This document shows positions 45,229 through 61,508 of a stretch of DNA of 64,000 nucleotides, piece by piece. Every line of letters begins with the position of its first letter. Position 1 is the first letter of the stretch. The translations under genes were made by a program, and so were the position numbers. The notes beneath the pieces were generated by a model that was not told where the DNA came from, made no database searches, and saw only the letters and a list, made by a program, of their open reading frames with translations. The DNA lies in the NCBI RefSeq assembly GCF_015240255.1, contig NZ_CP061205.1, positions 2,191,501 to 2,255,500 on the forward strand, written 5' to 3'. This stretch comes from Kordiimonas pumila. Lineage in GTDB: Bacteria > Pseudomonadota > Alphaproteobacteria > Sphingomonadales > Kordiimonadaceae.

Positions 45229-45255
45229 AGACGTTTGCGGTTTTCTAAGAACCAC

Positions 45256-46143: not shown

Positions 46144-46153
46144 GAGTGATACA

Positions 46154-46338: not shown

Positions 46339-46361
46339 GTTGCCGCATGTTTTACGGCAAC
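46339..46361 (-). terminator. Hairpin after flaF
   Basis: GTTGCCG (46339-46345), 9-nt loop, CGGCAAC (46355-46361), 11 bp after the flaF stop. No T tract on the minus strand; a probable 3' end structure of the flbT-flaF mRNA. Confidence 0.5.
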
Positions 46362-46371
46362 CGAAGACTGT

Positions 46372-46794
46372 TTATAAAATGGAATTGATCGGCGTGGGGG
46401 CGGTCTGGTCTGTATTTGACGCTTGAGCAGCTTGTTTTTGTAGCTGGCTTTGGGCGGCAAGCCCTTCCATAATGGTGCGGTTGATGCTGATCAGGTCATC
46501 AACAGATTCCTGCCCGCGTATAACAAGGGAAGAATGTTTCGAGACCCATATGGCTAAGGATATTATGCTTGCACGCAGTTGGTCGGGCAGGGAATTACCT
46601 TTAGCGCCGCAGTCACTAGACAGTGTCGACCACATCCGCCGATTCCAGTCCACTGCATCAATAAGTTTCATATCGCGAACACCGCTGTCTTTGGCTTTCA
46701 TCAGGGCATTGGTAACCTGAGCAAAGAGCCTGTACTCCACTTGACTTGGAGTTTCTGCGGTGTTCTGAGCTTTCTGATACGCTTGATACGACAT
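46372..46794 (-). CDS. flaF: Flagellar biosynthesis regulator FlaF
   Basis: The 140-aa protein matches FlaF (SYQAYQKAQ start, DWNRRMWSTLSSDC, ASIISLAIWVSKHSSLVIRG). In Caulobacter FlaF is needed for flagellin secretion and synthesis and works against FlbT. A Gln/Ala/Thr-rich tail follows the domain. The gene is 29 bp after the flbT stop on the same strand; together they form an operon upstream of the flagellins. Confidence 0.93.
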   Translation of the reverse strand: MSYQAYQKAQNTAETPSQVEYRLFAQVTNALMKAKDSGVRDMKLIDAVDWNRRMWSTLSSDCGAKGNSLPDQLRASIISLAIWVSKHSSLVIRGQESVDDLISINRTIMEGLAAQSQLQKQAAQASNTDQTAPTPINSIL

Positions 46795-46823
46795 TCGTAT
46801 TCCTGCTTTGTTGTTTTAAACTG

Positions 46824-47222
46824 TTACTCGCTGGAGGGCGCCAGCCGCGCATTTTCAAAAGCGATCAACTTTTTACAGTTCATCAAGGCCCTGTAATAGT
46901 TCCTATCCATAACATCCCGGCTAATTCCAACGCAGTTTTCCACTGCTTCGGGGGTGCTAATCGCGTGCATGAATTCTGTCATTCTGACAACAAATTCATC
47001 GTAATATTTTGGCGTGGGAGCATTATCCATATACATCAGCATAATCGGGAAGTAGATCCGTTTAGCTGGTGTATCGACTTGCTCTTCCTGCAAAATATCC
47101 TTTTCTCGCAGTATTGATGCCTTGTTATGGACAATCAATGTTGCACGCCTGTCAGCATTTGCAATTACTGCGCCATTTATCACCAGTTTCTCATCTGGTT
47201 TTAAGGAAAGTTTTAAAGCCAT
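46824..47222 (-). CDS. flbT: Flagellin mRNA regulator FlbT
   Basis: The 132-aa protein matches FlbT: MALKLSLKPDEKLVINGAVI start, KASILREKDIL and YFPIMLMYMD segments. In Caulobacter FlbT binds the 5' leader of flagellin mRNA and lowers its translation or stability when the hook is unfinished. Here the four flagellins have hairpin-containing leaders that could be its targets. GGGGGAG lies before the start, within reach of a perfect 12-bp palindrome CCGAAATTTCGG (47233-47244). Confidence 0.94.
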   Translation of the reverse strand: MALKLSLKPDEKLVINGAVIANADRRATLIVHNKASILREKDILQEEQVDTPAKRIYFPIMLMYMDNAPTPKYYDEFVVRMTEFMHAISTPEAVENCVGISRDVMDRNYYRALMNCKKLIAFENARLAPSSE

Positions 47223-47344: not shown

Positions 47345-47360
47345 TGGCATCAGCTTTGCA
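47345..47360 (+). promoter_or_regulatory. Sigma54 promoter of the FlmG-like glycosyltransferase operon
   Basis: TGGCAT (47345-47350), 5 bp, TTGCA (47356-47360): -24/-12 elements at correct spacing, about 75 bp before the ATG. This is the same class as the promoters of all four flagellins. Confidence 0.75.
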
Positions 47361-47434
47361 AATATAAGGCCGGTATGCAAATTTATATGCGCAATCTGCA
47401 ATTTTTGCCGCATAAATAAAGGCAGGGGGCAATA

Positions 47435-49183
47435 ATGGCAACAGCAAGAAAGCGCAAGACACAGCAAAAAGCTGCAGCGCCCAAGAAAAAAACCAAACTG
47501 GAAAAGCTTGGTTTTCAAGATGTCGATATGTCCATCAAGGAATTGCGGCAGTCTTTAAACAAAGGCATAAAGTATGCTGAAGCGGAAGATTGGGAAAATG
47601 CCCTGCCACCGCTTCTGAAGGCATGGGATGCAATGCCGGATGATATTGGCGTTCTAACCCTTATCGCACAGGGCCTCTCGCGCCTTGGTGTTAGAGAATA
47701 TGCCATTAAGGTTCTTGAGCGGGCTCTTAGCCAACACGAGCCAACGATTGATCTTTGCACCATTATGCAAACACTTGCACTTGATATGGGTATGTATGAA
47801 GTAGCATCAAAGCTTGGTTTGCAATTGATCGCAATGGAACCAAATGCGCCGAGGCACTATGTAAATTTGGCCACCGCCTATACGGGCATGAATGCTTTTG
47901 ATGAAAGTATTGAAATGTTACAGGCGATACTGCCAGTATTTCCTGATACAGCTGATTTGTGGAATGTGCTGGCGACGCAAGTGCGGGCACGTGACGGGGC
48001 CGCTGCTGCAGATGTCTTTTTTGATGAAGCCTTAAGGCTGAACCCGGATGACTTTAAGGTTATCAGTAATTATGCCCAGTCTTTCACGGCGCGACTTGAG
48101 TATGACAAGGCGCTGGCTATGAATCTTAGGGCTGTTGAGGTTAACCCGAGTAACCCAGAGCCGCGTATGGGTGTTGCCCAGATATCTTTCATGAAAGGTG
48201 ACATGAAAACAGGCTGGGAAAATTATAAGCATAGATTAAGCCCGCGCCGTAAAATTACGCAGACTCAGATATATACTCACGGGCTAGAAGAATGGCAGGG
48301 TGAGAACCTGGAAGGAAAAGCTGTGCTTGTGGCCGCAGAGCAGGGCATTGGCGACGAGGTTATGTTTGGAAACTACCTGCCTTATTTGTACGAGCGTGCG
48401 GCAAAGCTGGCGATTGGGTGTGACCGGCGTTTGGTATCTATCTACCAAAGGCGCTTTCCAGATGCAATTGTAAGCGCCTATGTTGATCAGATTAAAGCAG
48501 GGTACAGGTACCGTACATTTCCGTTTATTCAAGGCCCCATGCAAAAGGGTGAGTTGCATATGGATTATGCCATACCTCTTGCAAGTGCCCCTATGTATGA
48601 TTGGCTTACAAAAGACGATGTTAAATGTCACCCAGATACCTTTCTAGTGGCAGACCCGGTAAGGGCAGCGGACTTTAAAAGCCGGTTGCAGGCACTGGGG
48701 GATAAACCAAAAGTTGGTCTTGCGTGGCGAAGTGGCCTGATGGCTGCAGACAGGGTTGGTATTTACGCGGGTATTGATGAGCTTGCCCCCTTGTTTGCCT
48801 ATAAAGATCAGGTGGACTTTGTTAACCTTCAATACGGTGACTGCACCCATGAACTGCTAGAAATGAAAGAGCGTTACGGCGTAACTGTTCATAATTTTGA
48901 AGATGTTAATCTTAAAGCGGATATTGAGGCTAACTTGGCAATCATGGAAAACTGCGACATCATGATTGGTGCTTGTTCTGCGCCGGGTATCTTTTCCATG
49001 TCTCTTGGACGGCCAACAATGCTGATGCATAAAGTACCGCCGTGGTATTGTTATGGTCAGCAGAATTCCATTCCTTTTGTAAAAGATTGCCATTTTAGCT
49101 CTGGTCTGCAAGGTCATGACTGGGCTGAAATTATGGAAGAAGTCAGAAAGTGGATGGTATCGCGTCTGAATTTGAAGGGGTAA
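47435..49183 (+). CDS. TPR-domain glycosyltransferase, FlmG-like (putative flagellin glycosyltransferase)
   Basis: The 582-aa protein has a basic N-terminus, TPR-like repeats (about 50-270) and a C-terminal GT-B-type glycosyltransferase part (about 290-580) with GENLEGKAVLVAAEQGIGDEVMF and KPKVGLAWRSG. This is the layout of Caulobacter FlmG, which binds flagellins through its TPRs and adds pseudaminic acid. Neighbours (flbT-flaF-flagellins on one side, a NeuB-like synthase 6 bp downstream on the other) and the sigma54 promoter support the same role. Orthology to FlmG is inferred, and the donor sugar here may differ. Confidence 0.82.
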   Translation: MATARKRKTQQKAAAPKKKTKLEKLGFQDVDMSIKELRQSLNKGIKYAEAEDWENALPPLLKAWDAMPDDIGVLTLIAQGLSRLGVREYAIKVLERALSQHEPTIDLCTIMQTLALDMGMYEVASKLGLQLIAMEPNAPRHYVNLATAYTGMNAFDESIEMLQAILPVFPDTADLWNVLATQVRARDGAAAADVFFDEALRLNPDDFKVISNYAQSFTARLEYDKALAMNLRAVEVNPSNPEPRMGVAQISFMKGDMKTGWENYKHRLSPRRKITQTQIYTHGLEEWQGENLEGKAVLVAAEQGIGDEVMFGNYLPYLYERAAKLAIGCDRRLVSIYQRRFPDAIVSAYVDQIKAGYRYRTFPFIQGPMQKGELHMDYAIPLASAPMYDWLTKDDVKCHPDTFLVADPVRAADFKSRLQALGDKPKVGLAWRSGLMAADRVGIYAGIDELAPLFAYKDQVDFVNLQYGDCTHELLEMKERYGVTVHNFEDVNLKADIEANLAIMENCDIMIGACSAPGIFSMSLGRPTMLMHKVPPWYCYGQQNSIPFVKDCHFSSGLQGHDWAEIMEEVRKWMVSRLNLKG

Positions 49184-49188
49184 TTTCT

Positions 49189-50058
49189 GTGACTATGAAC
49201 TCTCCGTATTTTATAGCAGAAGTATCAAGCAATCATGCGCGCGATTTAGGGCGCTGTATTGATTTTATAAAAGCATCAGCTGAGATTGGCTGTGATGCTG
49301 TCAAGTTTCAGCTTTTTAAAATTGACGAGCTTTTTGCCCCTGAAATTCTTAGTAAAAGCGAGGAGCACCGCAGGCGCAGGCAGTGGGAACTGCCGCTTGA
49401 GTTTTTACCAGACCTTGCCAAAGCTAGCGCGGACCACGGCCTTGCTTTTACCTGCACGCCTTTTTATCTAAAGGCAGTTGAAGAGCTGGACCCCCATGTA
49501 AGCTTTTTTAAAATTGCCTCGTATGAACTGCCTTGGGATGCCTTGATTAAAGCCTGCGCTGCGACGGGAAAACCACTGATTTTATCAACCGGTATGGCTA
49601 CAATAGACGAGATTGAGCATGCTGTGGCTGTTTTTCATGATGCAGGCGGCAAGGGCTTAACGCTCCTTCACTGCGTATCTGGGTATCCAACGCCAATTGA
49701 GTTTTGCAATCTCGCTGCTATTAAAACATTACGGGAAACATTTGATGTACCGGTTGGGTGGTCAGACCATAGTCGTAATCCGGTTATTGTTAGTCAGGCT
49801 TTGAACCATTGGGGTGCTTCTGTCGTTGAGTTTCACCTTGATCTTGATGAACAGGGCGCTGAGTATGCCTCAGGGCATTGTTGGCTTCCAAAAGAGATAG
49901 CACCGGTAATTGCGGCTTGTCGCCAGCTTGAGGCTGCTAACGGCACCGGTATAAAAGAGCCAACCCCTGCGGAAATATCAGATAGAATCTGGCGTGCGGA
50001 CCCATCAGATGGCCTTAGGCCATTCCTTGAAATGAGGCGGGAATGGGCGAAAAAATAA
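49189..50058 (+). CDS. NeuB/PseI-family nonulosonic acid synthase lacking the SAF domain
   Basis: The 289-aa protein has the sialic acid synthase TIM barrel: AEVSSNHARDLGRCIDFIKASAEIGCDAVKFQ, TCTPFY, KIASYEL, LSTGMA and the LLHCVSGYPTP segment. The enzyme condenses a hexosamine with phosphoenolpyruvate. The C-terminal antifreeze-like (SAF) domain of usual NeuB/PseI (about 345 aa) is absent; the protein ends in a short RADPSDGLRPFLEMRREWAKK tail. GTG 49189 is taken as start with GGGG 8 bp upstream; ATG 49195 is an alternative. The next gene overlaps by 16 bp. Confidence 0.88.
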   Translation: MTMNSPYFIAEVSSNHARDLGRCIDFIKASAEIGCDAVKFQLFKIDELFAPEILSKSEEHRRRRQWELPLEFLPDLAKASADHGLAFTCTPFYLKAVEELDPHVSFFKIASYELPWDALIKACAATGKPLILSTGMATIDEIEHAVAVFHDAGGKGLTLLHCVSGYPTPIEFCNLAAIKTLRETFDVPVGWSDHSRNPVIVSQALNHWGASVVEFHLDLDEQGAEYASGHCWLPKEIAPVIAACRQLEAANGTGIKEPTPAEISDRIWRADPSDGLRPFLEMRREWAKK

Positions 50059-51797
50059 TTGCAGTTATTGGGGCACGGCTGAACAGTAGCCGGCTCCCCC
50101 GGAAGCAGCTTTTACCCCTTGCCGGCAAGCCGCTTATTGCGCGTCTTGTCGACCGGCTGCGTACGGTAAAGTCCCTTGATGATATTATTCTCGCCACGAC
50201 AGGCGATGATTACAATGGCGACCTCGTGAACTGGGCAGAGGAATACGGTATTACCGTTGAAGCATATAACGGTGATGTTAATGATCTTGTGGGAAGGGTA
50301 GACAGCGTTGTGCAGAAACATAACGCTGATATGCTTCTTTATGTGTGCGGCGATTGTCCTCTTGTTGAACCGGCTAGTATTGAAAAATGGGTGGATGCCA
50401 TGTTGGCCGACCCCGCATGTGAAATGGCCGCCTTTATGCCCCGCAACGATAGCAAAAAATATATTCATGAAGGTTTTGATCTTTTCCGCCGATCATTTTG
50501 GGATCGGATGGAAAAAGTTGCTCTTGAGCCTTTTGAGCGCGAGCATATTGGCGCAGTGTACCACCATCTGCATAAGGTTAGCCCGAATAAAATAGCCAAC
50601 GTAATCGACGATGATATTTATGCAAGCTGTGACCACAGACTATCGGTTGATACATCGTCAGACTATTTTTTTATGCGGCGTATCTATGAGGATTGGTACA
50701 AAGATAATGGGCCTGAAAGTTTGGTGGATTTGAAAACTGTTATTCAACGGATTTTAGCAGACCCGGATCTTACAAAAACCAATAAGGAAGTTCGGCAACG
50801 CAAGGTGGGTGAAGAATGCCCGCGTGTTGTGATTTTCTGTGAAGCAGGCCCCACCGTGGGGCTAGGGCATCTTTCCAGAGTGTTAGTGGTGATACAGGCA
50901 CTGCAAGACCATCTGTCTGCATCTGTTATGCTCTGTATTAAAGGGCAAGCGCTTAGGCACAGTGCGCTGGCACTTGTGCCACACTGCTGGGTTGATAGTT
51001 TTTCAAATTTTACAACTAAAGGTAAGGTTTGGGATGCCGCTGTTGTTGATGTAAAGACACTTGATCAGCCCCTGTTTGATGTGTTGGAACAACTCCCTGA
51101 TGGCACCTTGAAAATAGCTGTTGATCAGGACTTAAAGCTGCATGATACATTTGATTTCATGTGGCAGCCCTGTATGTATCTTGACGAGGAAGCCATTAAG
51201 CCGTGTGCTGATAAAGTTGAATATGGCTGGCATACATTTTTGTTAAGGGCAGGCAATAATACAAAAAAGCCTGATCATGATCAGAACCGTGTGGTGGTTT
51301 TAACCGGTGGTAGTGATGCCGCTGGGTTGGGTGCTGTATGGCCAGAAAAGCTGCTGGCTGTCATGAACACTGCCGCTGAAATTGACTGGGTGCAAGGGCC
51401 ATTTGCAGCACCGCCAGTTATGCTCGCTGGAGCGGGTATGAATATTCTGCATGCCCCTGACAATCTAACAGACTTGCTGCCTTCTTATACGGCGGCGCTT
51501 GTCGTTTTTGGTGTTTCTTATTTTGAGTGTTTACTGGCTGGTGTTCCTGCTGTTGTCTCAAATGCGGCAGGGGCGGCCAAGCCAAAAGAGTGGGCGTATC
51601 TCAAAACGTTATTCCCAGAGTTTACGGCTGATACAGACGAGGAAGCGTTCGATAAACTGCTGAAGGCGGTTAGGAGCGCGGACACCAACAAGCTGCAAGC
51701 CTTGCAAGATCAAATGCGTCAAGGGCCTGCCAATTTTGCAAACAGAATTGGCGCGTTGCTGGCTGCAAGAAAAGTGGAATATGCCGATGCCTCCTGA
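50043..51797 (+). CDS. Fused cytidylyltransferase (NeuA/PseF/SpsF-like) and PseG-like nucleotide-sugar hydrolase
   Basis: The 584-aa protein has two domains. Residues 1 to about 240 form a nucleotidyltransferase of the SpsF/NeuA type, with IAVIGARLNSSRLPRKQLLPL and YVCGDCPLVEP. Residues about 260-580 form a GT-B-like domain with the PseG/SpsG signature EAGPTVGLGHLSRV. In pseudaminic acid synthesis PseG removes UDP and PseF loads CMP. Here both steps are in one chain, surrounding the NeuB step encoded just upstream. The start overlaps neuB by 16 bp. The fusion could channel the intermediate. Confidence 0.86.
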   Translation: MGEKIIAVIGARLNSSRLPRKQLLPLAGKPLIARLVDRLRTVKSLDDIILATTGDDYNGDLVNWAEEYGITVEAYNGDVNDLVGRVDSVVQKHNADMLLYVCGDCPLVEPASIEKWVDAMLADPACEMAAFMPRNDSKKYIHEGFDLFRRSFWDRMEKVALEPFEREHIGAVYHHLHKVSPNKIANVIDDDIYASCDHRLSVDTSSDYFFMRRIYEDWYKDNGPESLVDLKTVIQRILADPDLTKTNKEVRQRKVGEECPRVVIFCEAGPTVGLGHLSRVLVVIQALQDHLSASVMLCIKGQALRHSALALVPHCWVDSFSNFTTKGKVWDAAVVDVKTLDQPLFDVLEQLPDGTLKIAVDQDLKLHDTFDFMWQPCMYLDEEAIKPCADKVEYGWHTFLLRAGNNTKKPDHDQNRVVVLTGGSDAAGLGAVWPEKLLAVMNTAAEIDWVQGPFAAPPVMLAGAGMNILHAPDNLTDLLPSYTAALVVFGVSYFECLLAGVPAVVSNAAGAAKPKEWAYLKTLFPEFTADTDEEAFDKLLKAVRSADTNKLQALQDQMRQGPANFANRIGALLAARKVEYADAS

Positions 51798-52719
51798 ATA
51801 TGAATGGAAGGATGCCAGATACGGCGCCCATAAAGGGGCTGTTTTGTGGCAAAAGGGTGCTGATACGCTGATTGAGTGTGCATGCTGCGGGTTTAGGCAC
51901 ATTGTGCCACTCCCAAGCGAAACTGTGCAAAAGGCATTCTATGAAGAGAGCTTTTACCAGTCAGAGAAAGCTAAGTATCTGGCTGAAGCAGAAGAAGATT
52001 TTGCATGGAAAGCAGTGGAGTGCGGCCTAAGAATTGATATTGCGGTTGAGCTGTCAGGTATTAAAGCCGGACGTGTTCTGGATATTGGCAGTGGACCCGG
52101 AGACTTTTTAAAAGTGGCACAGTCAAGGGGCTGGGATGCTGTTGGTATTGAGCCTTCACCTGTTGCTGCTCGCTATGCGGCTTCACGTGGGCTGAATGTC
52201 ATTAATGGTTTCTTCAATGCAGACACAGCAAAAGATCTTGGACGATTTGATTTCATTCATTTGAGTGAGGTGTTAGAGCATATCGCTGAACCAGAGTCTT
52301 TGTTAAAGTTGGCAAGAAGCCTTTTGAAAAAAAACGGTGTTCTGTGTGTATCAGTTCCTAATGATTTCAATCCATTACAGGGTGTTTCTGTTAAAAAACT
52401 TGAGAAAGAAAAGTGGTGGATCGTGCCTGATCACCATCTGAATTACTTCGATTTTGATAGCTTAACAGGGCTTATTGAAAAAAATAGTTTGAGGGTTAAG
52501 AAGGAACTCACAAACTTCCCGATGGAGCTATTTTTACTTATGGGGCAAGACTATGCAGGAAACCCGGCTTTGGGCCGACAAATGCATGGCTGGCGTAAAA
52601 CGATGGACACAAATATAGCCGAAGTATCGCCAGAACTTTTGCGCACTTTCTATGAAAAGCTTGCAGAAGCCCGCATGGGTAGGCTCGCTATTGTATTTGC
52701 TGTTCTGGGTGATGAATAA
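51781..52719 (+). CDS. Class I SAM-dependent methyltransferase
   Basis: The 312-aa protein (from ATG 51781; ATG 51787 possible) has a short N-terminal part with CACCG (a possible metal site) and a Rossmann methyltransferase core: GRVLDIGSGPGDFLKVA, the acidic motif II EPSPVAARYAA and the SEVLEHI segment. It overlaps the upstream fusion gene by 17 bp and belongs to the sugar operon, so it probably methylates the nonulosonic acid or another glycan precursor. Substrate unknown. Confidence 0.85.
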   Translation: MPMPPEYEWKDARYGAHKGAVLWQKGADTLIECACCGFRHIVPLPSETVQKAFYEESFYQSEKAKYLAEAEEDFAWKAVECGLRIDIAVELSGIKAGRVLDIGSGPGDFLKVAQSRGWDAVGIEPSPVAARYAASRGLNVINGFFNADTAKDLGRFDFIHLSEVLEHIAEPESLLKLARSLLKKNGVLCVSVPNDFNPLQGVSVKKLEKEKWWIVPDHHLNYFDFDSLTGLIEKNSLRVKKELTNFPMELFLLMGQDYAGNPALGRQMHGWRKTMDTNIAEVSPELLRTFYEKLAEARMGRLAIVFAVLGDE

Positions 52720-52720
52720 G

Positions 52721-53812
52721 ATGGGCATAGCTGATATAAATATGTTCAAAGAACGCTATGATCAGTTTGACAGCTTTTTTCTGTACGGCGCAACACCGGC
52801 AGCGGTTGAGACGGTTGCTTTACTCAAGAAGCACGGCAAAAAGATAGCAGCTTTTGTAGACCGTGATCCTTTGAAGCAATCGGTGGATTTTTTAGGCTAT
52901 CCTGTAATTGCACCAGCAACTTTTTTACAGGCTTCCACTGAGGCAGCCGGTGTTATTATTGTGTCTGCTTATCAGCTTGAAATTTATCAATACCTCATTG
53001 AGGAAGGTATTGATAATAAAAGAATTTTCCCGCACCTTGATGGTATGTTTTTCCCCACGTATGGGGCAGGTTATGTTGAGAACCCGGTGCTGCAAAAAGT
53101 GCTGGAAGGCCTGAAAACTTTGGAAGAAAAAAGCTATTTTGAAACATGGCTTTCTTTTAAAGAAACTGGGAATTATTCAACCTTAAAAGCGATGGCTTCT
53201 ATTGGGCGGCAATATGAACACAAGGCGTGGCAAGCGACTATTAGGCCGGGCGGTGTTTGCTGTGATGTTGGTGCCTATGACGGCGTTTCCTCAATAGACT
53301 TTTTAGCGACAGGACTATTTGATAAGGTCGTTGCCCTTGAGCCTTTTGCAAAAAATTATGATAAGCTCTTATATAATATTAAAAAAAATAAGTTAGGCGA
53401 GAAACTGGAACCTCGGCAAATAGCGCTTGGTAGCTGCAGGGAAACCCTGTGGCAGAATACAGAAGATGTATCAAGCCGAGCACGTATTGTTGAAACTGAC
53501 GGGCAGGATCAGGCGGGGCAGGAAAAAATAGAAGTTTTTCCGCTTGATAGCTTGGGTTTGAAAAACCTGACTGCTCTCAAGGTTGATATTGAAGGCTTTG
53601 AGCTCGCCTTTCTGGAAGGGGCGAAAAAGACTTTGGCTGATTATAGACCCCATATTGCTATAAGTGCGTATCATGTTAAGTCCCACTGCATTGATATAAT
53701 TAAGTTTTTTCAGGAAAACTTCACTGGCTTTGATGTGCGAATTGGTCATCACCCACAGGCTGTATATGAGCTGGAATATTATATTTCTTTTACGGGTGCG
53801 AAGGCTCTATGA
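52721..53812 (+). CDS. FkbM-family methyltransferase with N-terminal nucleotide-binding-like domain
   Basis: The 363-aa protein has an N-terminal Rossmann-like part (about 15-120: FFLYGATPAAVETVALLKKHGKKIAAFVDRDP) often found in glycan loci, and a C-terminal FkbM methyltransferase (about 175-350: VCCDVGAYDGVSSIDFL, LEPFAKNYDKL, ALKVDIEGFELAFLEGA). FkbM enzymes O-methylate sugars and polyketides. Start ATG 52721 is 2 bp after the previous stop; the next gene overlaps by 4 bp. It is the second methyltransferase of the operon. Confidence 0.87.
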   Translation: MGIADINMFKERYDQFDSFFLYGATPAAVETVALLKKHGKKIAAFVDRDPLKQSVDFLGYPVIAPATFLQASTEAAGVIIVSAYQLEIYQYLIEEGIDNKRIFPHLDGMFFPTYGAGYVENPVLQKVLEGLKTLEEKSYFETWLSFKETGNYSTLKAMASIGRQYEHKAWQATIRPGGVCCDVGAYDGVSSIDFLATGLFDKVVALEPFAKNYDKLLYNIKKNKLGEKLEPRQIALGSCRETLWQNTEDVSSRARIVETDGQDQAGQEKIEVFPLDSLGLKNLTALKVDIEGFELAFLEGAKKTLADYRPHIAISAYHVKSHCIDIIKFFQENFTGFDVRIGHHPQAVYELEYYISFTGAKAL

Positions 53813-55044
53813 AAAAAAGGCTATTATTACTCGGTGGTGGTTTTGAGCAACTGAACGCGCTTCGTATTGCTCAGGAATTAGGCGCCGAGGTTATTGTTTT
53901 TGATGGGCACGAAACAGCGGCTTGCGCCTTTGAGGCATGCGAATTTTACCAAGTGAATATTAAAGACCATGCCGCACTTATAGCGAAGGCAAAAGAACTC
54001 AGGCTCGATGCCGTTTTTGTTCATGCGGCTGAGCTTGCTATTGAATGCGCGCTGGTTGCTGAGGCTGTTGGGCTACCTGGTATTTCGGTGGAATCTGCCA
54101 AGCTTGGAACAGATAAAACCTTGAGAGCAGCGTGCCTCTTGAGGGCAGGTGTACGGATACCAAAGTATCAGCCACTGACTGCTGCATCTGATTGGAGCGC
54201 ATGGAGAAACGCTGGTGATGCCCTTGGCTATCCGATTATAGCAAAACCCACCAAGCTTGCAGGCGCGCAAGGGGTGGAGTTTATACCAGATGAAATAGCC
54301 TTGCAGCGATATTTCGAGGGTAAACAAAGCTTTAAAGCGCAAGACTTTTTACTTGAAGAGTTTTTGCAAGGTACCCAGCTTAGTACAGAAAGTGTTGCTC
54401 TTGACGGTGCGCTTGTGTGCACGAGTATTGCACTTAGACACTATGATACGACGCAGCATCTCTGGCCACACCAGATCGAAGATGGTCACTCAATGCCCTA
54501 TGACGCCTCTCTTGAGCTGCAAAATTCTATTGATGATGTGACTGAAAAATGTCGTGCAGCATTTGGTATTGAAACGGGCGTGTTAAAGGGAGATTTAATT
54601 ATTTCCCCATCAGGTGAGATTATCGTACTGGAAATGGCGGTGCGCACATCAGGTGGCCGTTTCTGTGATACTGTTGTGCCTGTTAGTACAGGGGTAAATA
54701 TCCTGTATCCGCTCATTCAGTATGCATTAGGGCAAACGCCTGATCCTGCATACCTGAAAGCGGACAGACATGTTGGTGTGTCACAGCGTTTTGTCTTAAT
54801 TCCTGAGGGTAACCGGTTAAAGGAATACAAAACAATTCAGCATATTCTTTTGCAGGAAGATGTTATTGGATGGTGGTTTAGAGATGACCTTCAAGACTTG
54901 GCTCAAGCGCCCAAAATTATGTCGCACAGGGACAGGATTGGCTATGTTATCTGTAGTGCTGATACCAGAGATAATGCTGACAAAAGAGCACAGACAATTG
55001 TTGAACAACTGGTGAAAGCTATAACACTGGAGACACTAACATGA
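53809..55044 (+). CDS. ATP-grasp enzyme (carboxylate-amine ligase-like)
   Basis: The 411-aa protein has an N-terminal Rossmann-like domain (LLLLGGGFEQLNALRIAQELG), a central ATP-grasp with AKPTKLAGAQGVEF and LLEEFLQGTQLSTES, and the Mg-binding IIVLEMAVRTSGGRFCDTV segment. Such enzymes join a carboxylate to an amine or thiol via an acyl phosphate. It overlaps genes on both sides by 4 bp (ATGA). In this sugar operon it could attach an amino acid or acyl group to the free amine of a 4-amino sugar, in place of the missing PseH acetyltransferase. This role is speculative. Confidence 0.86.
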   Translation: MKKRLLLLGGGFEQLNALRIAQELGAEVIVFDGHETAACAFEACEFYQVNIKDHAALIAKAKELRLDAVFVHAAELAIECALVAEAVGLPGISVESAKLGTDKTLRAACLLRAGVRIPKYQPLTAASDWSAWRNAGDALGYPIIAKPTKLAGAQGVEFIPDEIALQRYFEGKQSFKAQDFLLEEFLQGTQLSTESVALDGALVCTSIALRHYDTTQHLWPHQIEDGHSMPYDASLELQNSIDDVTEKCRAAFGIETGVLKGDLIISPSGEIIVLEMAVRTSGGRFCDTVVPVSTGVNILYPLIQYALGQTPDPAYLKADRHVGVSQRFVLIPEGNRLKEYKTIQHILLQEDVIGWWFRDDLQDLAQAPKIMSHRDRIGYVICSADTRDNADKRAQTIVEQLVKAITLETLT

Positions 55045-56189
55045 ACATTTTGATCATTGGCTCTGGGTCTTATGTTCTGAGTGACCCGTTCGGACCCGGT
55101 GTTGTTTTGCGGTCTGTCTTGCAGTGGACCAAAGATAGCAGGGTAGCTGAGCAGCAGGCTGTTACCATTACGCTTACATATCAGAGCGAAAAAAAACTAC
55201 CTGAAAAGCAGAGTGAAGTTGAAGCTATTATTAATTATTTCAATGGAATAAATGATAAAGTTAAAGTTAAGTTTGAAGCAGCTTCCGCTGTAAAAAACAT
55301 TCTTGCCGCTGGTGATGTTGCAGCCTGCTTTATTGCAGTTCCTGATGTACATCATGCGGAATACTGCAAACTTGCTATAGAACATGGCTGCCCAGTATGG
55401 CTTGTGAAGCCTCTGACCGGAAACTATGGCGCTGCGAAAGATTTAAGCAGGATATGTGGCGAATTAAGTGGAAATGTTTGGGTTGATTATCACAAGCGTT
55501 TTGACCCCTCTAATGCTTATCTGAAGCTTAAAGGCCAAGCTGGTGACTATGGCAGAATGCTTGTGTATTCAGTTGACTATCATCAGCCCTATACACTGCC
55601 AACACAGGTCTTTGACTGGACCAGTGATGTGGATGTTTTCACCTATATTGGCTGTCATTATGTTGATCAGGTTTTTTATCTGTACCCAGGTGCGCGCCCT
55701 GTTTCTGCCTCTGCATATCCCGTAAAAGGCAAGGTTTATGAAAAAACGGGCCAGTTTGACGGTGTGATTGCAACACTGCGTTTTGATGTGGAGGGCAATG
55801 AGCTATTGGTGCCCATGAATATTGGCTGGTTTAACCCTGCTGGTTCGCCGACAAAAAGCCTGCAGGTATTGAAAGTGCAATTTGAGAAAGGGCTGGTGAA
55901 CCTTGATCAAACGCGGCGTGGTATTGAAATATGGCACGAAGAAGGGGTCTCTGAAATTAACCCTTACTTTTTCGGTGAGGCATTGGATGCTATGGGGAAT
56001 AGCTATTACACTGGATACGGTTATAAAAGCGTTCAGGCGTTTCTCGACCTTGTGCAGTCTGGTCAAAAATGGCCATCTTCTGGAATTTTGCCAACGCTTG
56101 AGGAAGCCCTCAAAACAGAAAAGGTTTTATTCGGTGTTCAGGAAGCGCTTAAAACCGGCAAAGAATTTGATTACAGAACATTAGATTAA
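55041..56189 (+). CDS. Gfo/Idh/MocA-family oxidoreductase
   Basis: The 382-aa protein begins with a Rossmann NAD(P) site (NILIIGSGSYVLSDPFGPGVV), has the Gfo/Idh AVPDVHHAEYCKLAIEHGCPVWLVKPLTG segment with the conserved Lys-Pro, and a C-terminal mixed-sheet domain with the DYHKRFDPSN and IGCHYVDQVFYL segments containing the usual His. It probably oxidises or reduces a sugar hydroxyl/keto group. The start overlaps the ATP-grasp gene by 4 bp. It is a part of the tailoring block. Confidence 0.87.
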   Translation: MNILIIGSGSYVLSDPFGPGVVLRSVLQWTKDSRVAEQQAVTITLTYQSEKKLPEKQSEVEAIINYFNGINDKVKVKFEAASAVKNILAAGDVAACFIAVPDVHHAEYCKLAIEHGCPVWLVKPLTGNYGAAKDLSRICGELSGNVWVDYHKRFDPSNAYLKLKGQAGDYGRMLVYSVDYHQPYTLPTQVFDWTSDVDVFTYIGCHYVDQVFYLYPGARPVSASAYPVKGKVYEKTGQFDGVIATLRFDVEGNELLVPMNIGWFNPAGSPTKSLQVLKVQFEKGLVNLDQTRRGIEIWHEEGVSEINPYFFGEALDAMGNSYYTGYGYKSVQAFLDLVQSGQKWPSSGILPTLEEALKTEKVLFGVQEALKTGKEFDYRTLD

Positions 56190-56195
56190 CGCTAG

Positions 56196-56217
56196 TGTTA
56201 CCTGTGAAAATGTAACA
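56196..56217. promoter_or_regulatory. Inverted repeat TGTTAC-N10-GTAACA before the GH57-like gene
   Basis: TGTTAC (56196-56201) and GTAACA (56212-56217), in the 40-bp gap after the oxidoreductase gene. The same arms and spacing are at 24429-24450. It may be a hairpin or an operator. Confidence 0.35.
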
Positions 56218-56229
56218 GGGGCTTTGTAC

Positions 56230-58218
56230 GTGCCGCTACCGCTAGTATATACAGCGTTTCATATCAATATGGCCTTCTCTTCAATTGAGGAGGAGGACAG
56301 ATCTGCTGTTATAAAGCAGTGTTATTGGCCTCTTTTAGAGCTTGCTGAGGCAGGCTTTCCTATCGGGATCGAAGCAACCAGCTATAGTTTGAAAGCTATT
56401 CAGGCACTTGATCCAGAATGGATTGTTAAACTGAAAGCTTTAATCAAGGCTGGAAGTGTTGAGTTTATAGGCAGTGGTTTTACGCAAATGATTGCGCCGC
56501 TGGTGCCACCCGAGGTAACCGAATGGAACCTGAAGCTTGGCCTGCTGGACTATGAAGAAATTTTAGGCATTAAGCCTTCTATTGCGCTCATTAATGAACA
56601 GGCATATGCGCCAGGACTGGTGCCTTTATACTGCGCCGCCGGGTTTAAGGCAATTATGATGGATTGGTCAGAACCAGCCAGTCATAATACATCGTGGAAA
56701 AATAAGTTTGCACATTATCCACAGTGTATTGCAGGCGCGGGCGATAGTGTTATTCCTGTGGTGTGGTCTGATGCAATTTCATTTCAAAAATTTCAACGTT
56801 ATGCCCAAGGCGAAATTGACGCAGATGAATATTTGGAATTTTTAAGTTTGCAGTTGGGCGAGGGGGCCAAAACATTCCCGCTCTACACAAGTGACGCTGA
56901 AATATTTGATTACCGCCCCGGCAGGTTTCAGAGTGAGGCGTTACAAGGTGCTATTTCTGAGTATGAACGTATTCGGCTGCTGCTGGTGGCTTTGAAAAAC
57001 AGTGGATATGTAAAACTTGGTTTACCGTCAGATGCGCTTTCTTTGTTGGCAACTGATACAAAGCCTGTACGGTTGGAGACAGCAACGGCACCAGTGCCTG
57101 TTAAAAAGCAAAGAAAATACAATATTACCAGATGGGCAGTTTCAGGTAGAAATGACCTTCTTTTAAATACGCATTGCTGGCGTGTTTTTGAAGGTCTTAA
57201 AGGTGATGCCAAAGCAGGCAGTAATGAATGGCGTGCGCTTTGCGCCTTGTGGGCCAGCGATTACCGGACACATATTACAGAAAAGCGCTGGAAAACCATG
57301 GTTTCCAGTTTGCCTGAAATCAATCGTGCCTCTGCTGTAGTACAGCAAAAACGAGAGACCGTGTCTGATGATGTGCATATCAGCAATGATAGACGTTTTT
57401 TGGTGATAAATGCTGATAAGGCTCATCTGATTTTAAACCTTTACCGGGGGATGGCTATTCAGTCTTACGGGCCGGGAAAAGCGCAGGTGGAAAATGCAGG
57501 TGCTCCGGCGCGCAATGGTTTTATTGGCACTTTGTCGCATGGTTTTTATCAAGATATTGCCATGGGGGCTGACTTTTATACCGGGCATTTTACGTTCGAG
57601 CCAGCTGCTAGCCATAAAGTGACAGACTTGGTGCGTGTTGGCCATGCTTTATCCTGGTTGCCTGAGATAGAAGCGCTTGAAATTACGGCGCCTATTAAAA
57701 CGTCTCTGGGCACAATAACCAAACGCCTTTTATTCTATCCGTACCAACGCAAGCTAAAAATAGAATATAAGGGCATACCGTTGCCGCAAGTTGGTAGTCT
57801 GCGGTTGTTCAATATAACACTGAACCCACGGGCCTTTAAAAAGAAACATCTGTATTACGCAGCCCATAATGGCGGTAAAAACCCAGATAGGCATGCTTTA
57901 TGGGGTAAAGGCCTGATCGAGATTGACCACGGTGCACCTGTTTCGCGGCTTGTATCAGCAACAACAGGCCTTGGCATGACTGGGGGCTATCTGGAATTTG
58001 GGGATGATAAAAACTATGTCCGATTGGAAGTTGATCGTACAGCAGCGGCAGGCATCGGAATGATAACCAGTAAGGCCGTGAGCAAAAGCTTTTTTGTTAG
58101 AGCAGCTGTTTCATTGCAGGAACTGGATGAAACTGCCGGGCGGGATCATTTTACACTTCAGGATATGGTGTCGCCGCTTTGTGTGGCGGCCACCTTGTCT
58201 TTTGGCTCGCATACATAA
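56230..58218 (+). CDS. Glycoside hydrolase family 57-like protein
   Basis: The 662-aa protein has an N-terminal GH57-like catalytic part: YTAFHINMAFSSIEEED, a GSGFTQMIAPLVPPEV segment, ALINEQAYAPGLVPLY with a candidate nucleophile Glu, and SDAEIFDYRPGRF with a candidate acid Asp. A large C-terminal beta-rich part (about 390-660) follows, as in other GH57 proteins. No signal peptide, so it acts in the cytoplasm. GTG 56230 fits the GGGG upstream (8 bp). A hydrolase in a sugar-biosynthesis operon is unusual; it may trim, transfer or edit an intermediate. Family call by pattern. Confidence 0.72.
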   Translation: MPLPLVYTAFHINMAFSSIEEEDRSAVIKQCYWPLLELAEAGFPIGIEATSYSLKAIQALDPEWIVKLKALIKAGSVEFIGSGFTQMIAPLVPPEVTEWNLKLGLLDYEEILGIKPSIALINEQAYAPGLVPLYCAAGFKAIMMDWSEPASHNTSWKNKFAHYPQCIAGAGDSVIPVVWSDAISFQKFQRYAQGEIDADEYLEFLSLQLGEGAKTFPLYTSDAEIFDYRPGRFQSEALQGAISEYERIRLLLVALKNSGYVKLGLPSDALSLLATDTKPVRLETATAPVPVKKQRKYNITRWAVSGRNDLLLNTHCWRVFEGLKGDAKAGSNEWRALCALWASDYRTHITEKRWKTMVSSLPEINRASAVVQQKRETVSDDVHISNDRRFLVINADKAHLILNLYRGMAIQSYGPGKAQVENAGAPARNGFIGTLSHGFYQDIAMGADFYTGHFTFEPAASHKVTDLVRVGHALSWLPEIEALEITAPIKTSLGTITKRLLFYPYQRKLKIEYKGIPLPQVGSLRLFNITLNPRAFKKKHLYYAAHNGGKNPDRHALWGKGLIEIDHGAPVSRLVSATTGLGMTGGYLEFGDDKNYVRLEVDRTAAAGIGMITSKAVSKSFFVRAAVSLQELDETAGRDHFTLQDMVSPLCVAATLSFGSHT

Positions 58219-58271
58219 ATGATTTGTTTTCTAAACGGTTAGAAATAAAGAAGTTCTTTCACCTTATAGTA

Positions 58272-58294
58272 TTGAATGATAGGCTTCCATTCAA
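58272..58294. promoter_or_regulatory. Inverted repeat before pseB
   Basis: TTGAATG (58272-58278) and CATTCAA (58288-58294), 27 bp before the pseB start. It may be an operator or a hairpin separating the GH57-like gene from pseB-pseC. No sigma54 element is seen here. Confidence 0.35.
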
Positions 58295-58321
58295 CGGTGC
58301 AGATATTATGGGAGGGCCTCT

Positions 58322-59359
58322 ATGGCACTGACAGGTTTTGACAGTTCCACGGCTGATCTTAAAGGTAAGTCAATTTTAATAACCGGGGGTACTGGTTCTT
58401 TTGGCTCAACGCTGCTTAAGCAGTTGTTAAGGGACCATGAGCCGCGCCGGGTGATTATTTTTGCGCGAGGTGAGTATAACCATTTTCTGCTGCAGAATAG
58501 CCTGACAGAGGACCAGCAATCCAGAGTGCGCTTCTTTATTGGGGACGTACGCGACCGTGACCGCCTTGTTATGGCGATGCGGAATGTTGACCTTGTTGTG
58601 CATGCTGCGGCTCAAAAACAGGTGCCGCTCGCTGAATATAACCCTTTTGAGTGTATCAGAACAAACGTGATTGGTGCAGAGAATGTGGTGCAAGCGGCTA
58701 TTCAGGCCGGTGTTAAACAGGTTTTGGCTTTGTCAACAGACAAGGCTGTAAACCCTATTAACCTTTACGGTGCCAGTAAGCTTGCATCTGATAAAATTTT
58801 TGTGGCGGCCAATGCATTGGCCTCAGGAACTGGTACACGATTTTCTGTTGTAAGATACGGTAATGTTCTTGGATCACGGGGGAGTGTTATTCCATTTTTC
58901 CGGTCGCTTTTGAATGAAGGTGCAACAGAGCTTCCTATCACGGATGCACGGATGACACGTTTCTGGATAACCCTCGAACAGGCTGTTGCTTTTACGCTTT
59001 CATGTATTTCTATCATGCGGGGCGGTGAAATTTTTGTTCCCAAAATACCGTCCATGCGTATAACAGACTTGGTTGAAGCACTTGCACCTAATGTTGGGCA
59101 AAAACATGTGGGTATTCGGCCCGGTGAAAAGCTGCATGAAATCATGATTACTGAACATAATGCATTAAACACGGTTGACTATGGTGACCGGTATATCATT
59201 CAACCTGAATGGAACTTTTGGGATAAGGATGCTCATACAAAAGGCGGGCATTCTATAATGGATGAGGGTTTTGAGTACTCTAGCGACAAAAATGATAGCT
59301 GGCTGGATGTTGAATCGTTAAGGACGATTTTAAAAACGATCCCAGATAGTGGGTCATAA
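58322..59359 (+). CDS. pseB: UDP-GlcNAc 4,6-dehydratase/5-epimerase (PseB/FlmA-like)
   Basis: The 345-aa short-chain dehydrogenase/reductase has NAD motif TGGTGSFGS (21-29) and the PseB active site STDKAVNPINLYGASK with Asp140, Lys141, Tyr149 and Lys153, at the same spacing as the FlaA1/PseB catalytic residues. PseB makes UDP-2-acetamido-2,6-dideoxy-beta-L-arabino-hexos-4-ulose, the first step of pseudaminic acid synthesis. GGGAGG lies 7 bp before the start. The pseC gene follows 11 bp later, making a two-gene module. Confidence 0.9.
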   Translation: MALTGFDSSTADLKGKSILITGGTGSFGSTLLKQLLRDHEPRRVIIFARGEYNHFLLQNSLTEDQQSRVRFFIGDVRDRDRLVMAMRNVDLVVHAAAQKQVPLAEYNPFECIRTNVIGAENVVQAAIQAGVKQVLALSTDKAVNPINLYGASKLASDKIFVAANALASGTGTRFSVVRYGNVLGSRGSVIPFFRSLLNEGATELPITDARMTRFWITLEQAVAFTLSCISIMRGGEIFVPKIPSMRITDLVEALAPNVGQKHVGIRPGEKLHEIMITEHNALNTVDYGDRYIIQPEWNFWDKDAHTKGGHSIMDEGFEYSSDKNDSWLDVESLRTILKTIPDSGS

Positions 59360-59370
59360 CGGGGTTAATC

Positions 59371-60564
59371 ATGCCACAGCATTTTCTACCGTATGGGCGG
59401 CACACACTTGATAGCGATGATATTGCTGCTGTTGTTGATGTCTTAAAGCACGGTGCCCTTACCTGTGGCCCCAAAGTGGATGAATTTGAGGCAGAATTTG
59501 CTCGTAAAATTGGTGCTGTGGAGGCTGTTGTTGTGTCCAATGGTACAACAGCTCTTCATTTAGCTTTATTGGCGGCAAACTTTCGTCCTGGTGATATTGC
59601 CATTGTTCCGACACTGACGTTTTTATCTACAGCGAATGCTGTTCATATGGCAGGTGGCAGGGTTGTTTTTGCAGATGTTTGTCCTAAAACTGGTTTAATG
59701 ACACCAGATACACTGAAGGCGGCCTTTAAAAAATCAAACTACAAAGCAAAAGCTGTTTTACCAGTGCACCTGACAGGTCAGTCCGAGCACATGGCAGAAA
59801 TTCATGACTATGCCAGAGATAAAGGCATGGTTATTATTTCTGACTGTTGCCACGCGATTGGAGCAAGCTATAAGGCAGGCGGCTCGCCGGGAGACGGGCA
59901 ATTCGAAGATTTCGGTTGCTATAGCCTGCATCCAGTTAAAAGTATTGCTATGGGTGAAGGCGGGGTTGTAACGACAAAAACACCGGAACTGGCACGGTAT
60001 ATACGGCAACTTCGTAGCCACGATATGAGACGCCTTCCAGAAGAGTTTGTACGCCCAGAGCTCGGTTTTGATGATAGCGGCGAACCTAACCCGTGGTATT
60101 ATGAAATGCACGAACTGGGGTATAATTACCGCGCGACGGATATACAGTGTGCGCTAGGTCTTAGTCAGCTTGGTAAACTCGATAAATTTTTGGCGCGACG
60201 CCTTAAACTTGCTGATATGTACGATACGCTTTTAGAGCCTCTTGCTCCTGTGGTAACATCAAACCCTCGTTCTATTGACTGTAACTCTGCTTGGCATCTG
60301 TATGCTGTCAAAATTGATTTTGCTTCTATGGGCAAGAGCAGAGGCCATATTATGCGTAGCTTTGCAGAGAAGGGGGTTGGCACTCAGGTGCATTATATCC
60401 CTGTGCACGAACAGCCTTATTATCAAAAACATTATGGGGTGCAAGATTTGCCGGGTGCCGCAGATTATTATGCAGGCACACTAACGCTTCCTTTGTTCCC
60501 ATCAATGTTTGATACAGACCCTGGTTTTGTTGTAAAAACCCTTAAGGCGGTACTCAACAACTAA
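59371..60564 (+). CDS. pseC: UDP-4-amino-4,6-dideoxy-N-acetyl-beta-L-altrosamine transaminase (PseC/FlmB-like)
   Basis: The 397-aa enzyme is a DegT/DnrJ/EryC1-family PLP aminotransferase: SNGTTALHLALLAANFRPGD (57-76), ISDCCHAIGASY (156-167) and the PLP Lys190 in SLHPVKSIAMGEGG. PseC aminates the PseB product at C4. This start and length match the family, and the position directly after pseB supports the assignment over other sugar transaminases. A terminator for the convergent flagellin 4 lies downstream. Confidence 0.9.
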   Translation: MPQHFLPYGRHTLDSDDIAAVVDVLKHGALTCGPKVDEFEAEFARKIGAVEAVVVSNGTTALHLALLAANFRPGDIAIVPTLTFLSTANAVHMAGGRVVFADVCPKTGLMTPDTLKAAFKKSNYKAKAVLPVHLTGQSEHMAEIHDYARDKGMVIISDCCHAIGASYKAGGSPGDGQFEDFGCYSLHPVKSIAMGEGGVVTTKTPELARYIRQLRSHDMRRLPEEFVRPELGFDDSGEPNPWYYEMHELGYNYRATDIQCALGLSQLGKLDKFLARRLKLADMYDTLLEPLAPVVTSNPRSIDCNSAWHLYAVKIDFASMGKSRGHIMRSFAEKGVGTQVHYIPVHEQPYYQKHYGVQDLPGAADYYAGTLTLPLFPSMFDTDPGFVVKTLKAVLNN

Positions 60565-60677: not shown

Positions 60678-61508
60678 TTAGCTCTGGAACAGAGACAGGA
60701 TAGACTGAGGTGACTGGTTGGCAATCGAGAGTGCCTGAATACCAAGTTGTTGCTTCACTTGGAGGGCCTGTAAGTTTGCACTTTCTTTTGCCATGTCAGC
60801 ATCAACAAGGTTACCAATGCCGACTTCTATCACATCAGCAAGTTTACCGGAAAAACTACGGTTTTGCTCTAGTGACGTTGAGCCAGAGCCGAGCCTTGTC
60901 AATACAGCATTCAAGCGAATAATAGATTCGCCAATATCAGTTACCGCAGCCGAGGCTGTATCTTGTGTCGCAATACTTTGTGTCGAGGTGATAGAGATGT
61001 TTCCGCCGCCAAGAGTAAGGTCTTGGTGGGAAACTGTAAGGGTCTGTGTGGCATCTGCATTCGTGATTGCCACGATAGCGTCAGTGCCGTCGTCAATCAG
61101 GTTTGTGCCATTGAATGCCGCGTTATTAATAATAGTGTTTATCTGGTCACGCAGCGATGTGAAATCTTGTGAAAGGGCCGCCCGGCTTGTGGTATCCAAG
61201 CCTTGGTCAGCGGCGGCAACGGCTTTCTCTTTCATTTCAAGGAGAAGGTCTGAAATGGCTGTTGCTGCAGCGAGTGCCACGTCTACAGTAGATACACCAC
61301 GATCAAGTGATTGCTGAACGGCGTTTAGCCCGCGTAGGTCACCGCGCAACTTTTGCGCGATTGAATATACTGCAGCATTATCTTTTGCAGATGAAATTTT
61401 CAAGCCCGTGTTAATTTTTGTCTGCGTATTTTCCAGCTCTTTACCGGTAATATTCAGATTACGTAAAGCGTTTAGAGCGCTTGCATTAACATTAATTGAA
61501 AAGGTCAT
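60678..61508 (-). CDS. Flagellin 4
   Basis: The 276-aa flagellin is the most divergent of the four: NVNASALNALRNLNITGKELENTQTK at the N-terminus and DADMAKESANLQALQVKQQLGIQALSIANQSP near the C-terminus, ending LFQS. It is separated from the others by the glycosylation operon. It has a consensus sigma54 promoter (61568-61583), a leader hairpin and a strong terminator, so it is a self-contained unit. Confidence 0.95.
   Translation of the reverse strand: MTFSINVNASALNALRNLNITGKELENTQTKINTGLKISSAKDNAAVYSIAQKLRGDLRGLNAVQQSLDRGVSTVDVALAAATAISDLLLEMKEKAVAAADQGLDTTSRAALSQDFTSLRDQINTIINNAAFNGTNLIDDGTDAIVAITNADATQTLTVSHQDLTLGGGNISITSTQSIATQDTASAAVTDIGESIIRLNAVLTRLGSGSTSLEQNRSFSGKLADVIEVGIGNLVDADMAKESANLQALQVKQQLGIQALSIANQSPQSILSLFQS

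Follow-up and report, generated by a model that had tools for sequence, protein, structure and literature searches.

Introduction

Among the described systems, the sfmABCDE cluster of Shewanella oneidensis MR-1 is the closest to the subject of the present study, a ten-gene island between flagellin genes in a 64-kb window of Kordiimonas pumila (the window is the whole stretch of DNA analysed, and coordinates refer to it; the host genome is a single contig of 4.04 Mb). The sfm cluster encodes a NeuB protein of 290 amino acids, an IlvB-like protein (581), a short-chain dehydrogenase/reductase (SDR, 255), a methyltransferase (395) and an ATP-grasp protein (412 amino acids) (PMC3765264). The Shewanella genome is reported to hold PseB and PseC homologues and no clear ortholog of PseH, PseG, PseI or PseF, and the flagellin glycan is a mono-N-acetyl pseudaminic-type sugar of 274 Da bearing a methylated residue of 236-264 Da, with the formulas C9H16O7, C10H18O7 and C11H20O7 for the extra moiety (PMC3765264). 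The Kordiimonas island shares with this system a NeuB of about 290 amino acids, an S-adenosylmethionine (SAM) methyltransferase and an ATP-grasp protein in one cluster, and the lack of a clear PseH. The initial annotation did not know the combination as a described pathway; this needs correction, since many of the same gene types, together with a glycan that fits, are on record for sfmABCDE. The pathway kind is thus not wholly undescribed, and the route is probably a variant of the Sfm type. Herein, we propose, as a fairly probable reading of the sequence, that the island is an Sfm-type operon that would make a pseudaminic-type core, replace one N-acetyl group by a methylated sugar-acid amide attached by the ATP-grasp enzyme, and transfer the product to flagellin through FlmG.

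The two systems also differ. An IlvB-like thiamine pyrophosphate (TPP) enzyme and an SDR belong to the Shewanella cluster, whereas neither is found among the ten genes of the window, which hold Gfo/Idh and FkbM-type genes instead; relatives of the window island do carry TPP enzyme, SDR and methyltransferase genes of the Sfm families. Maf proteins have been suggested for transfer in Shewanella (PMC3765264), whereas the window encodes an FlmG-like protein. The window also has an SpsF-PseG fusion and a GH57-like protein, and "GH57" is absent from the main text of PMC3765264. The Caulobacter crescentus system shares with the window a protein with tetratricopeptide repeats (TPR) plus a glycosyltransferase part (putative in the window), PseB and PseC, cytidylyltransferase and PseG-like functions, and flagellin as the target (a probable one in the window), and is described with scattered genes, an SAF-bearing NeuB, the acetyltransferase FlmH and CtrA at promoters (PMC7591256). 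In contrast, the window has one operon, an SAF-less NeuB, a sigma-54 site and no full CtrA site upstream.

The flagellin glycan of Treponema denticola is reportedly a mono-acetyl nonulosonic acid (NulO) with a methoxy-trihydroxyhexanoyl group at N7, as attributed to Kurniyati in 2017. A 450.2 Da flagellin glycan exists in this species and is needed for filament assembly (PMC9481697). The Cj1295-dependent 2,3-di-O-methylglyceroyl pseudaminic acid (Pse) of Campylobacter jejuni is similar to the product proposed herein in that, on the flagellin sugar, an O-methylated hydroxy acyl amide takes the place of one N-acetyl group; the exchange is at N5 and, according to a hypothesis, comes after Cj1295 has cleaved the acetamido group, and the available part of the report has no ATP-grasp or GH57 protein (PMC3068675). 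Together, the Campylobacter sugar and the structure reported for Treponema show that exchange of one Pse N-acetyl group for a methylated hydroxy acid does take place on flagellin.

The island and its core enzymes

The ten plus-strand open reading frames (ORFs) at 47435-60564 are joined by overlaps or short gaps and lie between flbT, flaF and three flagellin genes on one side and a fourth flagellin gene on the other (Table 1). The four flagellins, FlaF and FlbT are encoded on the minus strand, and each is above its Pfam cut-off. The ORF list and Pfam bear out the strand, order and flagellin neighbourhood given in the initial annotation, and Pfam and NCBIfam family scans agree with its gene names. 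The order FlmG-NeuB-SpsF/PseG-Methyltransf_23-FkbM-ATP-grasp-Gfo/Idh-GH57-PseB-PseC is found identically in three further loci, L036 (Kordiimonas aquimaris), L038 and L040, so the arrangement is more than chance. The GC content of the island is inside the range of the whole window. From its gene content and setting, the island is very likely a flagellin NulO operon.

Table 1. Features of the Kordiimonas pumila island and its flanks, in window coordinates.
Feature	Position	Strand	Basis
Three flagellins, FlaF and FlbT; probable acceptors and regulators	43087..47222	-	ORFs; Pfam above cut-off
Sigma-54 (-24/-12) promoter-like site TGGCATCAGCTTTGC, 75 bases 5' of the FlmG start	47345..47359	+	Exact match
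FlmG-like protein; N-terminal TPR, C-terminal putative glycosyltransferase	47435..49183	+	TPR families; TPR matches to O-GlcNAc transferases in PDB
SAF-less NeuB, C-terminal WRADPSDGLRP	49195..50058	+	NeuB Pfam 209.7 bits; no SAF match
SpsF-like cytidylyltransferase fused to PseG-like domain (GLGHLSR)	50043..51797	+	CTP_transf_3; weak PseG match
Class I SAM methyltransferase (Methyltransf_23)	51781..52719 (start 51736, 51781 or 51787)	+	Best solved match is a sugar 3-C-methyltransferase
FkbM-type methyltransferase with extra N-terminal stretch	52652..53812 (start may be 52712)	+	70.5 bits, cut-off 37.7
ATP-grasp carboxylate-amine ligase, proposed acyl ligase	53809..55044	+	Family scans; conserved residues
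Gfo/Idh/MocA oxidoreductase, proposed acid-building enzyme	55041..56189	+	Family scans (weak in NCBIfam)
GH57-like protein, retaining-glycosidase fold, E125 and D224 conserved	56224..58218	+	Glyco_hydro_57 51.4 bits, cut-off 21.2
PseB, UDP-GlcNAc 4,6-dehydratase (inverting)	58322..59359	+	499 bits, cut-off 407.75
PseC aminotransferase	59371..60564	+	424.9 bits, cut-off 423.5
Fourth flagellin, with exact sigma-54 site at 61569-61583 (-)	60678..61508	-	ORF; Pfam above cut-off

Of the canonical pathway, PseB and PseC are both present above their cut-offs, and the island PseB is the sole PseB above cut-off in the genome. The island NeuB reaches 172.6 bits against the PseI family, below the cut-off of 340.25, and is not a canonical SAF-bearing PseI. 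Near its C-terminus lies the motif WR[AR]DPxDGxRP, which is found in 38 of the 41 NeuB ORFs of the clustered loci described below (34 of 37 without repeated contigs) and reads WRADPxDGLRP in 31 of those 38 (27 without repeated contigs); the ORFs without it are L028:7749, L059:15110 and L075:345. At most 20 residues follow the motif, leaving no room for an SAF domain. W266, R267, D269, P270, D272, G273, R275 and P276 are invariant in all 31 aligned rows, which were chosen by length and, once, by hand. The NeuB model (predicted local distance difference test, pLDDT, 94.9) is nearest to structure 6ncs (Leptospira, 290 residues) and then to C. jejuni PseI (8h2c). Canonical NeuB requires an arginine of the C-terminal domain (Arg322 in Caulobacter; PMC7591256). 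The conserved tail may stand in for this SAF-domain arginine.

The cytidylyltransferase part of the fusion protein scores 25.7 bits against PseF (cut-off 205.7) and is KdsB/SpsF-like instead. The fusion matches PseG at 29.1 bits (cut-off 153.55) and keeps GLGHLSR; GxGHxxR, the general form of what we take to be a PseG-related motif, is present in all 36 fusion homologues of at least 520 amino acids. The C-terminal half of the FlmG-like protein has no family match in the Pfam and NCBIfam scans. The gene accompanies flagellins in relatives, and its product is a putative FlmG. A second FlmG-like protein, 29% identical over residues 93-532, is encoded elsewhere in the genome at C1:466256-467563 (L133). 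The Maf transferase family PF01973 (now MptE-like) has no match in the genome, a weak test given that matches among the 14 control genomes occur only in four archaea.

Related loci and the side-chain cassette

The GH57-like protein is present in 9 of the 289 sampled genomes of the class, that of the window included. The other eight loci all contain three or more additional island families. BLAST detects FlmG, flagellin, FlbT or FlaF in seven of them, and the eighth (L016) has FlgI/FlgJ-cluster genes. With the SAF-less NeuB profile at E <= 1e-60, 4 of the 398 sampled genomes of the phylum were found, again with K. pumila itself, and GH57 is in the same locus in all four. Contig scans confirmed 267 GH57 relatives; the best 80 of the 267, which were kept, come from Kordiimonadaceae, other Alphaproteobacteria, Pelobacter/Desulfuromonas/Geobacter, Syntrophomonas and records titled Chloroflexi, Acidobacteria, Verrucomicrobia and others, most being metagenome-assembled genomes. 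The closest titled relatives are mostly Kordiimonadaceae, and an island of this type is also present in the same-genus genome G567.

The ORFs of 91 loci and the window were clustered, with cluster names resting on scans of one or a few members. A GH57 member is present in 89 of the 92 loci; in L094, L098 and L101, an overlapping ORF of the opposite strand was apparently chosen. Six pairs lie on the same contig (L016/L061, L017/L082, L018/L085, L019/L099, L020/L102 and L029/L041). The comparable set consists of 67 non-duplicate loci with at least 6 kb upstream, the window excluded. These contain ATP-grasp (56), methyltransferase (56), SpsF/PseG (52), TPP enzyme (46), SDR (42), flagellin, FliD, FlaF or FlbT (34), NeuB (30), PseB (30), FlmG (21), Gfo/Idh (5), KduI-like (5) and formyltransferase (5) genes.

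Among 68 homologues of the ATP-grasp protein with 370-480 amino acids, all have K103, K146 and E183, and 66 have E275. The best NCBIfam match of the Gfo/Idh protein is inositol 2-dehydrogenase, at 43.5 bits against a cut-off of 355. A Gfo/Idh gene stands between ATP-grasp and GH57 also in L036, L038, L040, L066 and L083. FkbM is present in all three Gfo/Idh-bearing loci among the nearest (L036, L038 and L040), whereas the 12 other nearest loci (L028, L031-L035, L037, L039 and L041-L044, some titled only Alphaproteobacteria or Sphingomonadales) have neither Gfo/Idh nor FkbM, and 10 of them have transketolase-type genes. The ATP-grasp proteins follow this division, with 59-61% identity to the window protein in the three Gfo/Idh loci vs 26-31% in the other 12. 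No such split is seen for NeuB (63-69%), GH57 (48-63%), PseB (73-82%) or PseC (56-63%); FlmG (51-57 vs 35-53%) and Methyltransf_23 (54-63 vs 29-55%) are slightly closer to the window in the Gfo/Idh loci. In trees of 22 chosen loci (the window and its 15 nearest loci, plus L083, L017, L018, L030, L059 and L073), the presence of Gfo/Idh requires one change on the ATP-grasp tree, with a support of 100/100 and the acidobacterial Gfo/Idh locus L083 inside the group, and four changes on the GH57 tree, at least three of them forced. The tree changes and the identity split indicate that the ligase changes with the presumed acid-building genes and that GH57 does not. We read the ATP-grasp ligase as fitted to the acid and GH57 as fitted to the shared sugar.

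Regarding the acid itself, C9H16O7 as an acyl increment equals the mono-O-methyl ether of C8H16O8, the composition of 3-deoxyoctonic acid (reduced 3-deoxy-D-manno-octulosonic acid, KDO), a match that is arithmetic of the present analysis rather than a claim of the Shewanella authors and that other structures of the same formula share. A KduI/IolB-type cluster gene (one member scanned) lies beside ATP-grasp or GH57 in six other loci. In two islands of different groups, an SAF-bearing NeuB gene directly precedes ATP-grasp (L028:7749-8831 (-), 22.2 bits; L075:345-1409 (+), 28.2 bits; cut-off 21), an arrangement as if the product of this NeuB were the acid to be ligated. The Shewanella moiety formula, the KduI/IolB-type genes and the placement of the SAF-bearing NeuB fit a sugar acid, possibly a 3-deoxy acid. 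In the window, the acid builder would be the Gfo/Idh enzyme, and a non-acetyl N-acyl side chain is likely attached through ATP-grasp.

Proposed pathway and points against it

What the sequences show is the gene content, the synteny, the conserved motifs, the folds, the joint change of ATP-grasp and the presumed acid builder, and the promoter-like site; the chemistry of each step, the stage at which acylation takes place and flagellin as the acceptor are inferred. First, PseB and PseC would convert UDP-GlcNAc to UDP-4-amino-4,6-dideoxy-L-AltNAc. Second, in place of acetylation by PseH, ATP-grasp would link the free amine, which becomes N7 in the finished sugar, to a carboxylic acid; the acid would probably be a polyhydroxylated, O-methylated sugar acid made by Gfo/Idh and one or both methyltransferases. 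Third, the PseG domain would strip UDP, and the SAF-less NeuB would condense the sugar with phosphoenolpyruvate. Finally, the SpsF domain would form the CMP sugar, and FlmG would move the sugar onto flagellin Ser/Thr before export. The related, further modified flagellin sugar expected in the initial annotation gains comparative support in part, namely for a pseudaminic-type route, the lack of a recognised PseH, ATP-grasp as the likely amide-forming ligase, and methylation.

Several observations weigh against this proposal. The likeness to Shewanella Sfm is drawn from published descriptions, and the absence of SAF from SfmA is deduced from its length. PseC is barely above its cut-off (Table 1), and ATP-grasp is not seen in 11 of the 67 comparable GH57 loci. 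In a tree of 52 ATP-grasp rows selected by length, a filter that dropped L038 and L083, the Chloroflexi Gfo/Idh locus L066 is placed apart, giving two changes; its Gfo/Idh protein is only 29% identical to that of the window. The Shewanella mutants also fit poorly with an ATP-grasp enzyme that merely attaches what the other enzymes build: deletion of the ATP-grasp gene (SO_3265) left filaments and swimming in liquid, with less spreading and a slightly smaller flagellin mass shift, the NeuB, TPP enzyme or methyltransferase mutants lacked filaments on almost all cells, and the SDR mutant had a visible flagellum and was non-motile on soft agar (PMC3765264). It may be that acylation comes late or is only partly required, or that a different ligase compensates. 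Finally, a canonical PseI is encoded elsewhere in the genome, at C1:1004435-1005151 (L014:10186-11262 (-); 451.4 bits, above cut-off), and an orphan PseG-like gene lies 11 kb from it at C1:1015883 (L121:10814-11779 (+); 92.9 bits, below cut-off), not beside a cytidylyltransferase gene. With these two genes, plain pseudaminic acid may also occur in the same cell. Of a possible second complete pseudaminic pathway, the genome shows one PseI and one separate PseG-like gene but no second PseB above cut-off. The canonical PseI gene overlaps a PRK12767-type ATP-grasp gene by 4 bases, with no pse gene among the neighbours scanned.

As initially noted, none of the ten island proteins is PseH. The genome-wide check suggested at that time gave no match above the cut-off of 93.1 bits and two below it, at 43 and 23.6 bits. 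The better of the two scores higher as PRK10140 N-acetyltransferase (67.9 vs 42.9 bits), also below the PRK10140 cut-off. PseH is above cut-off in none of ten genomes with related loci. Both searches are a weak test, since the cut-off is seldom reached in controls: 13 of 14 control genomes give matches and only one of these passes, and FlmH of Caulobacter is itself a divergent PseH (PMC7591256). In a first rival explanation, the core sugar would be plain di-N-acetyl pseudaminic acid, with a PseH-like GNAT protein encoded away from the island supplying the acetyl group as in Caulobacter, and with ATP-grasp, Gfo/Idh, GH57 and the methyltransferases decorating it later or elsewhere on the molecule. 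The sub-cut-off GNAT matches, the canonical PseI gene and the orphan PseG-like gene would suit this explanation, as would the dispersed pathway of Caulobacter, in which loss of FlmH, even with two paralogues, is unlike other pathway mutants (PMC7591256). However, the island has its own SAF-less NeuB in one operon with PseB and PseC, ATP-grasp is present in most comparable loci (56/67), and the best GNAT match fits another family better, making this explanation unlikely.

The GH57-like protein

Assignment to GH57 is supported by the family match, the fold and the catalytic pair. E125 and D224, which we take to be the nucleophile and the acid/base, align with E123 and D214 of Thermococcus 4-alpha-glucanotransferase (1k1w) and are kept in all 89 GH57 members, a number that falls to 83 once repeated contigs are removed. 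E125 is part of one of the two patterns used for scanning, a pattern missing from 18 of the 89, and D224 is part of neither. The best Foldseek match of the model (pLDDT 92.6) is a GH57 4-alpha-glucanotransferase (E 1e-21, TMq 0.42), followed by GH38 mannosidases (TMq to about 0.6), so the fold belongs to this superfamily, with domain shifts. The initial annotation gave this protein no role. Across islands of several phyla, its gene is regularly accompanied by ATP-grasp, which is present in 56 of the 67 comparable loci and is the nearest same-strand upstream gene in 37 of them. Retained next to each of the acid builders, with a catalytic pair that seems intact, GH57 probably acts on the shared sugar and not on the side chain.

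In a second rival explanation, GH57 would work inside the cell as a transglycosidase and attach a further sugar to the flagellin glycan, the product being at least a disaccharide and ATP-grasp acting on a side product. The GH57 fold with its catalytic pair, the 4-alpha-glucanotransferase as best match in both sequence and fold, and the retention of GH57 with every acid builder are in line with this. We nevertheless consider it improbable, more so than the di-N-acetyl core, because the position of ATP-grasp directly upstream in 37 of 67 loci suggests a common substrate and the Shewanella moiety formulas, as read here, are without hexose (PMC3765264). The amide-linked sugar acid remains our preferred reading. 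In literature searches asking for it, GH57 is mentioned in none of the matches listed among openly licensed papers. To our knowledge, there is no other glycosidase-fold enzyme inside a nucleotide-sugar/NulO pathway.

Promoter and regulation

Three exact matches to TGGCA-N6-TTGC, which we take to be the sigma-54 -24/-12 consensus, are present in the 64 kb, one before FlmG and two before flagellins; 2.05 would be expected by chance, so the signal is in their placement and not in their number. In the window and nearest loci, with one genome entering twice, an exact site lies near FlmG in 5 of 7 cases (L029 and L041, which lack it, come from the same genome) and near 17 of 23 flagellins, with none near the 11 NeuB or 17 PseB genes, compared with 24 of 1600 random stretches. 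This placement, common to FlmG and the flagellins, suggests 47345 as the probable start of the operon, which would be co-expressed with the flagellins. Evidence for control by CtrA, as in Caulobacter, was rejected: TTAA-N7-TTAA, the full motif, is present in two copies in the window, where 2.38 would be expected, and neither copy is upstream of FlmG. It is very improbable that the operon serves a surface polysaccharide and that its flagellin neighbourhood is secondary, since, although 33 of 67 loci have no flagellin, FliD, FlaF or FlbT cluster member in the available stretch (where flagellar genes are undercounted) and some hold other sugar-nucleotide genes, the operon of the window and of the same-order loci has FlmG as its first gene, flagellins on both sides and a sigma-54 site in common with them.

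Implications

Three features are new in the present study: the GH57-like companion of ATP-grasp, the NeuB tail motif, and the co-variation of ligase and acid genes against a constant core. Tentatively, we hypothesize a widespread and so far undescribed plug-in class of NulO pathways, in which an invariant core (tailed SAF-less NeuB, SpsF/PseG and GH57) would be combined with an exchangeable acid-builder/ATP-grasp cassette, swapped across species and even phyla and changing flagellar surface chemistry, with GH57 working inside the nucleotide-sugar/NulO pathway; this broader idea is possible, though less secure than the pathway proposed for the window. The chemistry of the flagellar surface is relevant to phage adsorption and host recognition. 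The comparison links a chemically studied, biosynthetically open flagellin glycan of Shewanella to a gene kit of several phyla, names ATP-grasp as the likely specificity element, and adds an unexplained conserved GH57 enzyme and an SAF-less NeuB subfamily with a diagnostic motif. If the reading is right, one could deduce the flagellar side chain from the cassette and employ the enzymes for making new sialic-acid analogues.

Additional observations

Further variants are seen among the related loci. A formyltransferase-cluster gene (one member scanned) directly precedes GH57 in L045, L047, L055, L077 and L095, a possible N-formyl variant. Sulfotransferase-family genes (two members scanned) lie inside 13 clustered loci, e.g. 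L017:9560-10408 (-) and L049:3731-4606 (+), and some flagellar sugars of such islands may be sulfated. The ATP-grasp/GH57 sets of L063, L064, L066, L067, L080 and L097 occur with class III aminotransferase, aldo/keto reductase or KduI-like genes and with no flagellin-cluster member in the available stretch, and perhaps serve other surface glycans. Elsewhere in the K. pumila genome, a cytidylyltransferase-like gene at C1:484195 adjoins heptose-type and lipopolysaccharide-export genes. In the window itself, two tandem tRNA-Glu (ttc) genes are located at 1033-1212.

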